Below, in pieces: positions 40,043 to 56,048 of a stretch of 64,000 nucleotides of DNA. A program made the position numbers and the translations under genes. The notes under the pieces were generated by a model that was not told the DNA's origin, ran no database searches, and worked only from the letters and a program-made list of their open reading frames with translations. Origin of the DNA: Lactiplantibacillus garii (lineage in GTDB: Bacteria; Bacillota; Bacilli; Lactobacillales; Lactobacillaceae); NCBI RefSeq assembly GCF_003885105.1, contig NZ_QWZQ01000004.1, positions 1 to 64,000 of the forward strand, written 5' to 3'. Positions within the stretch are counted from its first letter, which is position 1, and every line of letters begins with the position of its first letter.

Positions 40043-40329
40043 TAAATTAAATAGCTAATTAAATTTTAATAAACGGTTGCGATTAGAAAAAGTAATTAAC
40101 CATCCCTCCATCCAGAGAGTCCGGGTAGCTGCGAACCGGGCGGACATGGTTAACGAATCACATCTATGAACTGCTGGGGTGAACGGGTATCATTAGCCTC
40201 AGCCGAATTGGTTTCGTTATCCAAGTTGACTTTGTTCAACATGAGGTCGGTAGTGTGAGCTACCGGCGAAATAAGGTGGAACCACGTGTAAACGTCCTTT
40301 TAGCAAATTTGCTAAGGGGGCGTTTTTTT
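40043..40329 (+). ncRNA. T-box leader, histidine (specifier CAC)
   Basis: Stem I has the K-turn/AGTA region (40091-40094), the distal AGAGAGT...GGGTAGCTGCGAACC part, and a specifier loop with CAC (40159-40161) followed by A and the lower stem TCTA. The T-box core AAGGTGGAACCACG is at 40273-40286, and the terminator ACGTCCTTTTAGC... with a T-run at 40291-40329. CAC encodes His, matching the downstream genes. Uncharged tRNA-His should favour read-through. Confidence 0.9.
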
Positions 40330-52488: not shown

Positions 52489-53271
52489 CTATTCAATGGT
52501 ATCAAAGAAACTTAGCAGTTGTTCCTTAGTTAGTTGGGCCTTTTCTGCGTCCCGGACGTCAAACTTGATTTGACCCTGATCGAGGACGATTAGGCGGTTA
52601 CCGTATTTAAGCGCGTCGTCCAAGTGGTGGGTAATCATCAGACAGGTCAGTTTTTCTTGGGTGACCCGTTGGTTCGTTTGTTGCATCAGTTGTTCACTGG
52701 TCTTTGGGTCGAGGGCCGCGGTGTGTTCGTCCAGTAATAGTAAGTCGGGGCGTTGCTCGGTTGCCATTAAAAAACTGAGTGCTTGACGCTGCCCGCCGGA
52801 GAGGTTTTCGGTGGCCGTGTTTAACCGGTCCGCCAAGCCATTGTTATCCATCGTAGCCGTTAATTCTTTGAAATGGGCCATGTGTTGTTTGAGGTGGCGT
52901 AAACGTAACGTCCGGCGCTTACCGCGCTGGCTGGCAAGTAACAGGTTTTCGGCAACGGTCATCCGGGGCGCGGTCCCCATTTTAGGATCTTGAAAGACCC
53001 GGGCGAGGAAGGCGGTGCGTTTTTCCACGGATAAGTGGGTAATGTCCTGATCACGCAACTTGATGCTGCCGTCCGCAACCGGTAGTTCACCGCTAATCGT
53101 GTTGAAGAGCGTCGATTTACCGGCCCCGTTGGAACCCAAGACGGTGATAAAGTCACCGTCGTAGATGTTTAAGTTGAGGTGTCTTAAAATCATGACCTCG
53201 TTGGGGGTTCCGGTGTTGACCTTGGTAACGATGTTTTCTAATGATAATAACGGGGTACTAGTTTTCATCAT
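52489..53271 (-). CDS. ABC transporter ATP-binding protein (TrpZ-type)
   Basis: A 260-aa ATPase. Walker A GSNGAGKSTL, signature LSGGQRQAL, Walker B LLLLDEHTAALDP and the switch His in MITHHLDD are all present. Third gene of the operon; it overlaps the permease by 14 nt. ATG 53271 has AAAGGAG 9 nt upstream. Confidence 0.92.
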   Translation of the reverse strand: MMKTSTPLLSLENIVTKVNTGTPNEVMILRHLNLNIYDGDFITVLGSNGAGKSTLFNTISGELPVADGSIKLRDQDITHLSVEKRTAFLARVFQDPKMGTAPRMTVAENLLLASQRGKRRTLRLRHLKQHMAHFKELTATMDNNGLADRLNTATENLSGGQRQALSFLMATEQRPDLLLLDEHTAALDPKTSEQLMQQTNQRVTQEKLTCLMITHHLDDALKYGNRLIVLDQGQIKFDVRDAEKAQLTKEQLLSFFDTIE

Positions 53272-54166
53272 AGCGGGCAACTCCTTTCTTAAGGACGTTG
53301 TTTAAGTGCAACGCCTTGCTAAACTGTGGCAACATCAGGCAGATGGCCAGAATGAGGGCGGATAACAGGTTCATATCGTTGGTATTGAACCCGAGTTGTA
53401 AGACGAGTAAGCGGACGAACTGGTACAAAATACTACCGAGGGTCACGGCGACTAGGCGTTGGTTTAACGTTAGTTCACCAAAGACGACCTCACCAATAAT
53501 GATGGAAGCTAAGGCAATGACGATGATCCCAATCCCCATGCTGACGTCGGCGTAACCGTTGTTTTGGGCAATTAGGGCACCGCCAAGACCAATAATACCG
53601 TTAGAAACCATCAAGCCCATAATGGTCATATTGTCCGTGTTGATCCCAATCGACCGAGCCATTTCGCGGTTGTCACCGGTCACGATAAAGGCTTGGCCAA
53701 GGTTGGTTTGCAGGAAGACGATCAGGAGGACCGTGATAACGGAAATAACGACTAAGCCAACGAAGACGCTGTCGAAGTACTTGGGTAACGATTGAAGAAA
53801 CGGCGCTGAGAACAGCGTAGTTTTACCAAGTAGGGAAACGTTGGAGCTGCCGCCCATGATCCGCAAGTTGATGGATAAGCAGGCCGTCATCACTAAAATT
53901 CCGGCTAATAGGATGGGAACCTTTCCCTTGGTATACAGTAGCCCGGTAACTAATCCGGTAACCGCCCCAGCGGCGAAGGCCAGTAGGGAGGCGGTCAATG
54001 GTCCCATGCCGTGACTGATCGCCATAACGGCGGTGGCGGCACCTAGTGGGAAGGTTCCTTCAACGGTCATGTCGGGGAAATCTAAAATTCTAAACGTGAG
54101 AAACAGGGCGACCCCTAAAGTAGCCCATAGGAGGCCTTGTCCAATACTCGATACGATCATACTCAT
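53258..54166 (-). CDS. ABC transporter permease (TrpY-type)
   Basis: A 302-aa membrane protein with about eight helices, in the branched-chain-amino-acid-type permease fold: FLTFRILDFPDMTVEGTFPLGAA and GDNREMARSIGI (coupling helix) are typical of permeases paired with TrpX-like binding proteins. It begins in the ATGA overlap with the binding-protein gene. Confidence 0.9.
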   Translation of the reverse strand: MSMIVSSIGQGLLWATLGVALFLTFRILDFPDMTVEGTFPLGAATAVMAISHGMGPLTASLLAFAAGAVTGLVTGLLYTKGKVPILLAGILVMTACLSINLRIMGGSSNVSLLGKTTLFSAPFLQSLPKYFDSVFVGLVVISVITVLLIVFLQTNLGQAFIVTGDNREMARSIGINTDNMTIMGLMVSNGIIGLGGALIAQNNGYADVSMGIGIIVIALASIIIGEVVFGELTLNQRLVAVTLGSILYQFVRLLVLQLGFNTNDMNLLSALILAICLMLPQFSKALHLNNVLKKGVARYDEN

Positions 54167-55182
54167 TTGTAAATGACTCCTTTCGTTTTGGCTTCCTTAA
54201 GCACGCTGGCGGGGAACTTGATGCCGAGCTTTTTAGCTTCGGTCAGGTTTAACGTCATTTTCCCCTTAGAAATAACTTTAATTGCGTAGTTGCTAGGCGA
54301 CTTGCCCTTTAATACTTGGGCGGCCATTTCACCGGAAAGTTTACCCAACTGGTACTGGTCAACGGAGAGGGTTGCGAGTCCCCCAGCTTTAACCATCGTG
54401 TCAACGGCGGGAATAACCGGTACGTTGGCCTTGTTGGTCACGGAAACCAGGGTCTTCATCGCGCTTGCGACACCGTTATCTTGGGGCGCGTAGACGGCGT
54501 CAACGTGGGAAGCCATCGTTTCGGCAACCTGCTGCATATCGTTGGTGTTGGCGATGGTGTACATCTTGTACTTCACGCCCTCCTGCTTACAGATCCGAGC
54601 AAACTTCTTGGCGTTATACTCACCACCGTGATCGGAAGTGGTATAGATGATACCAATCGTCTTAGCCTTGGGAACGAGTTTCCGAAGTAAGTCTAAGTGG
54701 GACTTAAGTGGGGATTCACCGGACGTCCCGGTAATGTTGCCACCGGGATGCTGGTCGCTTTTGATCAGCCCACTCCCGGACGGGTCGGTGATACCGGCTA
54801 AAATAACGGGCGTTTCTTTATTTGCGGCGGTTGCCAGGGCCTGTGCGGCGGGCGTGGCGATACCGATTGTTTCGGCGGCGTTTTCGTTTACAAATTTCTG
54901 ACTCATGGTCTTTAAATTACTCTGATCACCCTGAGCGTTTTGGTAATCAATCTTAACGGTTTTTCCCGGAACGTACCCGTATTCTTTCAAACCGGCAACG
55001 ACCCCGCGGTGAATGGCGTCGAGGGCCGGGTGGGTTTGGAGTTGTAAGATGCCGACGGTCGGAATCTTGTCGGTGGTTGTGGACGCGTTGGGTGATTTTT
55101 TACCACCGGTAGTGAAGAACGCAATGCCGAGGAACACGACGAGGGCGCTAATAAATGCAATCATACGTTTCAATGTAGTCAC
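54163..55182 (-). CDS. ABC transporter substrate-binding protein, TrpX family
   Basis: A 339-aa type I periplasmic-binding-like protein. The signal region MIAFISALVVFLGIAFFTTGG lacks a lipobox Cys, so it may stay membrane-anchored by the helix. VGILQLQTHPALDAIHRGVVAGLKEYGY starts the fold, and VILAGITDPSGSGL and GIIYTTSDHGGEYNAKK line the cleft. The family (known from streptococcal TrpXYZ) includes tryptophan and other aromatic amino-acid transporters. The long leader upstream contains a small ORF with one Trp codon. Tryptophan import is therefore the leading guess. Confidence 0.85.
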   Translation of the reverse strand: MTTLKRMIAFISALVVFLGIAFFTTGGKKSPNASTTTDKIPTVGILQLQTHPALDAIHRGVVAGLKEYGYVPGKTVKIDYQNAQGDQSNLKTMSQKFVNENAAETIGIATPAAQALATAANKETPVILAGITDPSGSGLIKSDQHPGGNITGTSGESPLKSHLDLLRKLVPKAKTIGIIYTTSDHGGEYNAKKFARICKQEGVKYKMYTIANTNDMQQVAETMASHVDAVYAPQDNGVASAMKTLVSVTNKANVPVIPAVDTMVKAGGLATLSVDQYQLGKLSGEMAAQVLKGKSPSNYAIKVISKGKMTLNLTEAKKLGIKFPASVLKEAKTKGVIYK

Positions 55183-55213
55183 CTCAAAATAATTTCAATT
55201 AATCGGGCAGGTA

Positions 55214-55256
55214 TCCAAAATAAAAAGGGCAAACCAGTAAGCCTGGTTTGCCCTTT
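55214..55256 (-). terminator. leader terminator upstream of the ABC operon
   Basis: AAAGGGCAAACCA pairs exactly with TGGTTTGCCCTTT around GGCTTAC, followed by TTATTTT on the minus strand. It lies before, not after, the genes, so it must be conditional. Confidence 0.85.
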
Positions 55257-55364
55257 ACGGAACCGAAGCCTGCTGTGTCTAAAACCCATGCAGACTTCTT
55301 TGGATATCAAAGTTAAGCCGGCACAGATACAAACTGTTTGCCAGATTGTATCCGTGCAACGGAA

Positions 55365-55424
55365 TTACAATCTGAACGGCCGGCTTTGCCATGAACTGTT
55401 CAAGTTGAGTACAAACTTTGTCAT
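55365..55424 (-). CDS. putative leader peptide (19 aa, one Trp)
   Basis: MTKFVLNLNSSWQSRPFRL. GAGG lies 8 nt before the ATG. Trp is residue 12 (codon 55391-55389), and the outer stem begins 2 nt after it; the stop falls inside the first hairpin arm. The placement is what a ribosome-controlled attenuator needs, but a single Trp codon is unusual for classical attenuation. Confidence 0.5.
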   Translation of the reverse strand: MTKFVLNLNSSWQSRPFRL

Positions 55425-55459
55425 CCTTGATTCCTCGCTTTCGTTGATTAATTGAATTC

Positions 55460-55488
55460 AGTATAGGCATAGACGAAAAAGGTGTCAA
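55460..55488 (-). promoter_or_regulatory. promoter of the ABC transporter leader
   Basis: Consensus -35 TTGACA (55488-55483) and -10 TATACT (55465-55460) with 17-bp spacing on the minus strand. Confidence 0.85.
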
Positions 55489-55764: not shown

Positions 55765-56048
55765 AAATTAAAAACAGATTAAGACGTTGAAGAGAAGAGT
55801 AGCCACGGAAACGATTTTCAGAGAGCTTCGAATTGGTGAGAGAAGTAATGGTTAACGTGGTGAAGATGAGCTTGGAGTCATGACCCGGGTCGTAAGGCTA
55901 CGGGTGCGGTGGCAACCGATATATTGCGGAGTATCCGGTGGGTACTTGTCGAGGTTGTCATTGTGAGATGACAATGAATTACGGTGGTAACGCGAAAGCT
56001 TTCGTCCGTTGGTTTCATTATTTGAAACTAACGGACGAAAGCTTTTTT
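55765..56048 (+). ncRNA. T-box leader, methionine (specifier ATG)
   Basis: Stem I shows AGTA (55798-55801), the distal AGAGAGCTTCGAATTGGTGA block, CCACG/CGTGG closing the specifier loop, and ATG (55866-55868) followed by A. The T-box core ACGGTGGTAACGCG is at 55981-55994, slightly off the usual GGTGGNACC. The terminator AAAGCTTTCGTCCGTT... with T-run is at 55995-56048. Downstream genes make homocysteine and homoserine, matching Met. Confidence 0.88.

Follow-up and report, generated by a model that had tools for sequence, protein, structure and literature searches.

How is a tryptophan importer switched on and off when its leader carries a complete terminator and no T-box? In Lactobacillales, T-boxes commonly do such jobs. 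A trpXYZ operon on the minus strand of the window studied here (the whole stretch of DNA analysed, 64,000 nucleotides, in whose numbering all positions are given) was described in an initial annotation as lying behind a conditional terminator, possibly peptide- or ligand-controlled, of no known class. That observation is real; control by a peptide was largely right and the class assignment was incomplete. We conclude that the trpX leader is very probably a ribosome-mediated transcription attenuator that reads the supply of tryptophanyl-tRNA.

Architecture of the trpX leader

Judged by its sequence, the trpX leader carries the features of leader-peptide attenuators. It lies entirely on the minus strand ahead of trpX, from 55488 down to 55217, and is followed by three transporter genes:

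55460..55488, minus strand: promoter, TTGACA - 17 nt - TATACT, matching the consensus at 11 of 12 positions; like hexamers stand in other rows of the genus alignment
55425..55436, minus strand: Shine-Dalgarno (SD) region of an upstream ORF (uORF), GAGGAATCAAGG; GAGGA precedes the uORF
55365..55424, minus strand: uORF of 19 codons for the leader peptide MTKFVLNLNSSWQSRPFRL, then a stop; conserved in the genus and at RF04312 loci
55389..55391, minus strand: predicted regulatory Trp codon, codon 12; Phe or Tyr codons instead in paralogous leaders
55386-55379 with 55322-55315, minus strand: outer stem, 8 bp, AAGCCGGC with GCCGGCTT, beginning 2 nt past the Trp codon
55360..55376, minus strand: P0a, the uORF tail, partner of P1L (P0 is 55376-55360 with 55357-55342)
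55342..55357, minus strand: P1L, the strand common to P0 and P1
55315..55336, minus strand: P1R, 3' arm and shoulder of P1, with H1L as alternative partner (first antiterminator, AT1)
55302..55314, minus strand: strand pairing with the uORF start region 55426-55414 in the minimum-energy fold (SD helix)
55286..55298, minus strand: H1L, 5' arm of the middle hairpin and target of P1R
55257..55275, minus strand: H1R, 3' arm of the middle hairpin, with T2L and loop as possible partner (possible AT2)
55224..55256, minus strand: T2, intrinsic terminator with a 14-bp stem (T2L 55256-55243, T2R 55237-55224), then TTATTTT
54163..55182, minus strand: TrpX, tryptophan ABC transporter substrate-binding protein (NF041285, 448.7 bits, cut-off 390)
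53258..54166, minus strand: ABC permease, TrpY-like (PF02653)
52489..53280, minus strand: ABC ATPase, TrpZ-like (PF00005)

Most of the initial description is borne out by these elements: the consensus promoter, the 19-codon ORF with its Trp codon, the outer stem, two mutually exclusive hairpins (P0 and P1, through their common strand), the complete terminator between the uORF and the first gene, and a TrpX-type operon whose first gene exceeds the family cut-off and is followed by permease and ATPase. The window's uORF holds a single regulatory codon, one Trp. A third hairpin, H1 (55298-55257), between P1 and the terminator, was absent from that description. The further 8-nt pairing proposed there (55299-55306 with 55212-55219) is exactly present (TATCCAAA/TTTGGATA) but is not conserved and looks like chance: its downstream strand lies past the U-run and differs in other species among the alignment rows listed, and by arithmetic an 8-nt match is expected about once in some 300 nt.

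The leader folds to -96.7 kcal/mol, against a mean of -65.05 (sd 5.13) for 200 dinucleotide shuffles (z -6.2), and the T2 hairpin to -23.9 kcal/mol. In the ribosome-free minimum-energy fold the SD-region GGAATC (55434-55429) is paired with GGTTCC (55264-55259). TrpX matches PDB 3lft at E 1.8e-70. Its listed start is GTG, and from the sequence a TTG at 55173, behind GAGGTG, appears the likelier one.

The leader was rightly said to hold no T-box: RF00230 gave no match in it at Rfam cut-offs, nor at an E of 5, and its only matches in the window, 40070-40302 and 55778-56012, are both on the plus strand. The latter (95.1 bits) is a T-box leader divergent from the trpX leader; read from their translations, the genes behind it are homoserine O-succinyltransferase-like, O-acetylhomoserine sulfhydrylase-like and homoserine dehydrogenase-like. 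The former is a second T-box leader of 113 bits.

Relation to RF04312

At permissive settings, 55358-55217 matched Rfam family RF04312, the 'trpB ncRNA motif', with 38.9 bits (E 4e-4), short of the family's gathering score of 59; it is the only such match in this genome at E 0.001. The statement that no known class fits therefore stands in part: the sole family match is sub-threshold and belongs to a family without known ligand, but the P1 and terminator portion of the leader does resemble RF04312. RF04312 matches were found in 184 of 397 genomes of the family at E 0.01, with only 11 of the 397 reaching 59 bits, in 210 of 395 genomes of the order at E 0.001, and in 2 of 398 genomes of the phylum at E 1e-4; the three genome sets overlap.

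RF04312 corresponds to SRC-39-1 of Narunsky et al. 2024 (PMC11109978). In the sections of that paper available, it counts as a strong riboswitch candidate, has more than 900 representatives and lies mostly ahead of an uncharacterised ABC transporter; it is described as P1 plus terminator, those sections mention no uORF, and a protein factor or classic attenuator is 'not ruled out'. The window resembles the motif so described in having P1 with a GUAUCUGUGCCGGCU-type 3' shoulder, then a terminator, ahead of an amino-acid transporter; shared features are the P1 hairpin and terminator, the antiterminator in the right shoulder of P1, and an amino-acid ABC transporter or trpB downstream. It differs in that the Rfam model starts at P1, whereas the window adds the uORF, Trp codon, P0, outer stem and SD helix. 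No description of a uORF in the trpB motif was found in the open-licence literature searched. What is new is what stands upstream of the RF04312 motif, a uORF with a Trp codon.

A conserved upstream ORF with tryptophan codons

We read 201 records, amounting to 200 distinct loci, with their upstream sequence. They were chosen among the matches listed (60 and 80 fetched from the family and order scans, 60 further new loci, and the window), and near-copies were thinned. uORFs were called by a rule blind to Trp: an ATG with an SD, 9-35 codons and a stop near P1. Such a uORF is present in 193 of the 200 loci (185 without the weak SD form AAGTTGG, which was admitted after sight of such loci and on which alone eight rest). 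The same rule found one in 12/200 reverse complements, 13/200 shuffles, 9/200 sequences 190 nt upstream and 21/200 downstream genes. Trp occurs in 183 of the 193 uORFs, with at least two Trp codons in 107 of these 183, and makes up 8.9% of uORF residues versus 0-1.6% in the controls. A terminator-type hairpin accompanies the uORF at 192 loci. Four Rfam matches (L135, L199, L201, L203) were judged false by eye, having no sensible uORF or related gene, and were kept in the 200. Locus L194 was matched at its second hairpin and has its Trp uORF further upstream; L015, L053 and L173 show a Trp codon at the expected place, without an ATG and SD by the rule, and were scored as misses.

The first gene behind the 183 Trp-containing loci is TrpX-like in 158, TrpB in 14, another gene in 9, and out of range in 2; TrpB was assigned by similarity clustering, with which NCBIfam agrees in the 3/3 tested. 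Trp-codon leaders also stand ahead of oligopeptide-transporter-like binding proteins (L008 and L191 as named, L109 and L195 by similarity). In one genome the first ORF behind a Trp leader is a group II intron reverse transcriptase/maturase (L005:2047-3105, plus strand).

A survey starting from the TrpX genes instead gave the same association. It covered the best 80 of 506 relatives, from named genomes, some of them common to the RF04312 scans, and accepted an SD-ATG uORF at most 480 nt upstream with Trp among its last 12 residues. By this rule, 69 of the 80 genes have a Trp uORF, compared to 2/80 on the antisense strand. Two of the eleven misses are Oenococcus genes, whose uORF has three Trp codons in a row and no SD by the rule. 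Five more (L259, L279, L280, L288, L295) have a Trp uORF 509 to 835 nt upstream of the TrpX gene, which points to extra DNA between leader and gene. The 1.5 kb read held no Trp uORF at four of the 80 genes (L315, L317, L318, L323); at L315 and L317 another reading frame extends up to the TrpX gene. The leaders of L276 and L278 (Oenococcus) and L273-L275 (Leuconostoc) have a classic attenuator look, with Trp codons side by side in twos or threes (WWW, WWRR).

Within Lactiplantibacillus, a uORF with ...N(S/R)SWQS... was found upstream of trpX in 20/20 other species; in the TrpX survey the match to L. xiangfangensis is 93%. The first half of the genus uORFs is variable, with three-base gaps. The window's longer uORF end (PFRL) looks derived, because L220, L221 and many other genera stop directly after the CGG codon. 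Conservation of the ORF and its Trp codon, a check suggested initially, was thus observed across RF04312 loci, TrpX genes and the genus.

Codon exchange in leaders of paralogous transporters

At RF04312 loci without Trp, some uORFs end His-rich, Tyr-rich or Phe-rich. In the window's own genome, a second TrpX-like gene (L002, G000:C68; leader upstream of 41147, minus strand) has a leader with the Phe peptide MSSVTQLHLNNQFAFSFFFR and the same strand order, with P0 and P1 duplexes of -15.4 and -14.8 kcal/mol. This paralogue scores 313 bits against the TrpX model, below the cut-off of 390, and may therefore be a Phe transporter. A search for paralogues in 151 genomes of the family gave 29 new loci, comprising 24 Phe/Tyr leaders (for example QLNNRYYYSYYG and QLNNRFYFSYFR), one Trp leader and four with none by the rule. 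Loci L224-L226 and L240 had no uORF by the rule and were left out of the tree; a closer look found a Phe leader further up in L225, the end of one in L226, and none in L224 or L240. For L241 and L250 the second-ranked uORF candidate was taken, by its look.

In a transporter tree of 85 rows, a branch with support 100/99 separates the 54 rows with Trp leaders from the 31 Phe/Tyr rows; these 31 rows are 28 genes, three having been fetched twice (L197/L239, L202/L250, L192/L247). Inside the Phe/Tyr side, Phe and Tyr leaders interchange several times. The homologous leaders thus form a natural Trp/Phe/Tyr codon-swap series, which predicts substrates for uncharacterised transporter paralogues.

Single loci show other codons. 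The uORF of L009, MFKSNVTLHHHLHR, has His codons and precedes a gene resembling basic amino acid/polyamine antiporters, and L063 has Phe codons ahead of a sodium-dependent transporter. At L183, an RF04312-like leader with a uORF ending ...RYYWFS (Tyr, Tyr, Trp, Phe) stands ahead of a transketolase gene, for which an aromatic-pathway signal is conceivable. A Ser-rich short ORF with a TTG start and an RF04312-like match ahead of serC (L189) may be chance.

Alternative pairing and ribosome position across relatives

Pairing was assessed by segment swapping, in which pairing within a locus is compared to that of segments exchanged between 65 representatives of less than 70% identity. The positive controls, P1 and the terminator, gave z -18.5 and z -23.5, and four negative pairings gave z -0.7, +2.0, -0.5 and -0.7. 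P0 (uORF tail with P1L) is locus-specific at z -12.5 and AT (P1R with the 5' arm of the terminator) at z -6.1, each with 0/2000 permutations as good. The outer stem (post-Trp strand with P1 shoulder; z -5.2) and the SD helix (uORF SD with the strand after P1; z -6.6) are locus-specific as well, again at 0/2000, with own pairing above the median swap at only 37/65 and 36/65 loci, respectively; their strength differs between lineages. The competing stems pointed out initially do pair in a locus-specific way among relatives. Phe/Tyr leaders scored weakly on automatically cut segments (P0 z -2.2, outer stem -2.7, negative control -1.1); by reading, the automatic P1 assignment had merged P0 with P1 in these leaders, and a three-strand statistic was used afterwards. 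Among Trp leaders 62 of 65, and among Phe/Tyr leaders 24 of 25, have a signature above every one of their 20 shuffles.

The position of P0 relative to the Trp codons was then considered. P1 and terminator were found in order at 173 of the 183 Trp loci, and 159 of the 173 passed a P0 cut of -7 kcal/mol; the window's row (L003), for which automatic assignment returned zeros and strands were set by hand, is counted in the 173, the 65 and the 159. The P0 strand starts a median of 16 nt past the first Trp codon (at least 12 nt in 156/159), and 10 nt past the last Trp codon (at least 12 nt in only 64/159). A ribosome at the stop has the P0 strand within reach in 159/159, a count largely forced by segment cutting. 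When leaders were folded with a ribosome footprint, the count of antiterminator pairs was 4.27 when the A site held the first Trp codon, 1.85 for a ribosome at the stop and 3.24 with no ribosome. Going from stop to Trp, they rose by more than 0.5 pairs at 91 loci, fell by as much at 12 and stayed within that range at 70 (n = 173). A coarser measure, upstream pairing of the terminator arm, read 0.506 at Trp versus 0.452 at the stop, was higher with the ribosome placed further upstream and showed no Trp peak; the segment-specific counts were used instead. In these folding models the hairpins adopt different folds for a ribosome at the regulatory codon and at the stop across relatives, and in the window they appear to do so for P0 versus P1 at the H1L stage.

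These pairings bear on the suggestion by the authors of the trpB motif that it is a small-molecule riboswitch, on which P1 would be an aptamer that binds a ligand related to amino acids, the uORF being incidental. In its favour, conservation of P1 and its 3' shoulder suffices for a covariance model, the P1 loop hardly varies among the aligned sequences of the genus, and the available text of PMC11109978 classes the motif as a strong candidate. The conservation of P1 is, however, accounted for by P0, AT, the outer stem and the SD helix, and a riboswitch leaves unexplained a near-universal uORF whose codons track the transporter clade. We give it little probability. Read as an attenuator, RF04312 becomes the 3' part of a family of leader-peptide attenuators. 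RF04312 is, in our judgement, likely to be no riboswitch but the 3' half of an attenuator that is modular, with a leader peptide whose codons can be exchanged, and that serves Trp, Phe and Tyr transport in Lactobacillales (perhaps also His, Ser and mixed aromatic signals, from single leads), where some relatives use T-boxes; five to seven RNA strands would act in relay, the uORF tail first. An orphan RNA family would gain a concrete and cheaply testable mechanism, which argues against a search for a ligand.

A different role for the peptide is offered by TnaC, in which free Trp arrests the ribosome on a conserved peptide. Were the trpX leader of this kind, the leader peptide would sense free tryptophan in the exit tunnel and stall at high Trp. 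Both have a short leader peptide with a Trp codon, and among the 65 representatives Gln follows Trp in 57 and Asn stands at -3 in 30. Most other flanking positions are variable, however, and the regulatory codon is better conserved than the peptide. Peptide length runs from 11 to 24 and the first Trp lies at position 8 to 18; conserved residues at a fixed distance from the peptide end, as in TnaC, were not found in these 65, the last Trp lying 0-9 residues before the stop. The conserved CAA-AGC after Trp belongs partly to the outer stem. Runs of Phe or Tyr replace Trp in the paralogues, and one would less expect an importer to be induced by what it imports. Arrest by the nascent peptide accordingly has very little probability.

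Proposed mechanism

That the terminator is conditional and under leader-peptide control, as suggested initially, is strongly supported by the conserved uORF and Trp codon. The parts, their conservation and their pairing are present in the sequence; we infer translation, stalling, the sign of the response and the co-transcriptional order as follows. With charged tRNA-Trp ample, a ribosome at the uORF stop would cover P0a, and P1L and P1R would pair. With P1 formed, H1 and then T2 would fold and trpXYZ would be off. With tRNA-Trp short, the ribosome would wait at the Trp codon, cover the outer-stem strand and leave P0a free. P0 would then take P1L, P1R would take H1L (AT1) and H1R would take T2L (AT2), so that the terminator would come too late and the importer genes would be transcribed. 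When the uORF goes untranslated, its SD would be paired away and the default state would be off.

The window's relay was modelled by folding. The P1R-H1L duplex (AT1) has -14.6 kcal/mol in the window and -13.4 to -15.2 in the other 20 species, and the H1R-T2L duplex (AT2) -11.3 and -9.7 to -14.9, respectively, all without a shuffled control. A change on both sides of H1R-T2L in L220 is compensatory on our reading. In relatives P1R pairs with the terminator itself; as a direct antiterminator of T2 in the window it would form a looser duplex of -10.1 kcal/mol, and this arrangement was set aside. The arms of H1 resemble terminators of other genera, suggesting that this extra hairpin of the genus is the ancestral terminator, now lacking its U-run.

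At the H1L stage, with all upstream sequence covered, a ribosome at Trp gave 11.6 P0, 1.4 P1 and 9.7 AT1 pairs, and a ribosome at the stop gave 0 P0, 11.4 P1 and still 7.9 AT1 pairs. For RNA extended to 55257, P1 with H1 was preferred over the relay fold. Once the RNA reaches the T2 loop, again with the ribosome at Trp and all upstream sequence covered, P1 and H1 are retained in the best fold, at -48.0 kcal/mol, 1.0 more stable than the relay fold at -47.0; the ensemble has 11.3 P1 versus 3.1 P0 pairs. The fold with H1R-T2L pairs forbidden has -44.7 kcal/mol, and a small H1R-T2L helix can coexist with P1 and H1. With a single ribosome P1 and H1 win clearly and the gap is wider. As P1 with H1 is favoured at equilibrium, the relay would need kinetic trapping, with early hairpins lasting while the polymerase moves on. 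The window's late relay steps, from AT1 to AT2, are the least certain part of the model.

Two further readings dispense with the ribosome as sensor. A TRAP-like or other RNA-binding repressor might bind the leader. The signature of TRAP is an array of triplet repeats, none is seen in the leader by eye, and neither the uORF nor the codon swap would be explained. A bound protein is scarcely probable, although the accessible text on the trpB motif leaves a protein factor possible (PMC11109978). An unregulated terminator with a chance uORF agrees with the full-leader folds, in which T2 forms in each of the three ribosome states, but conservation, Trp enrichment and locus-specific alternative pairings leave it next to no probability.

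Comparison with known systems

In the trp, his and leu attenuators of Enterobacteria, a short ORF with regulatory codons is followed by a series of hairpins that exclude one another and, ahead of the first gene, by a terminator. The ribosome-mediated attenuator proposed for trpX follows the same ORF-hairpins-terminator plan, and the window's long chain is like that of the his and leu leaders. It differs in that stalling would free the uORF tail, which makes the first hairpin of the chain, and in that Lactobacillales leaders often have one or two regulatory codons.

If this reading is true, aromatic amino acids would have attenuators in an order that usually senses tRNA through T-boxes. Leader-peptide attenuators are also on record from other Firmicutes, for His (Naville and Gautheret 2010, PMC2965389; PMC9413887); as far as the available parts of these sources go, they have His codons, precede his genes and belong to other orders, and the his genes of Lactobacillales are reported with T-boxes. 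The consulted portion of a T-box survey (PMC2494555) places Trp T-boxes before ABC transporters in some lineages and records extensive T-box use in L. plantarum. A further parallel comes from Streptococcus suis, where, according to the accessible part of PMC9382623, trpXYZ is under a Trp T-box. Operon, proposed signal (tRNA-Trp charging) and the mode of control, transcription antitermination, are the same. In the T-box, tRNA binds the RNA directly and no leader peptide takes part, whereas the window's leader has no T-box at Rfam's cut-off. One signal thus seems to be read by two devices in one order.
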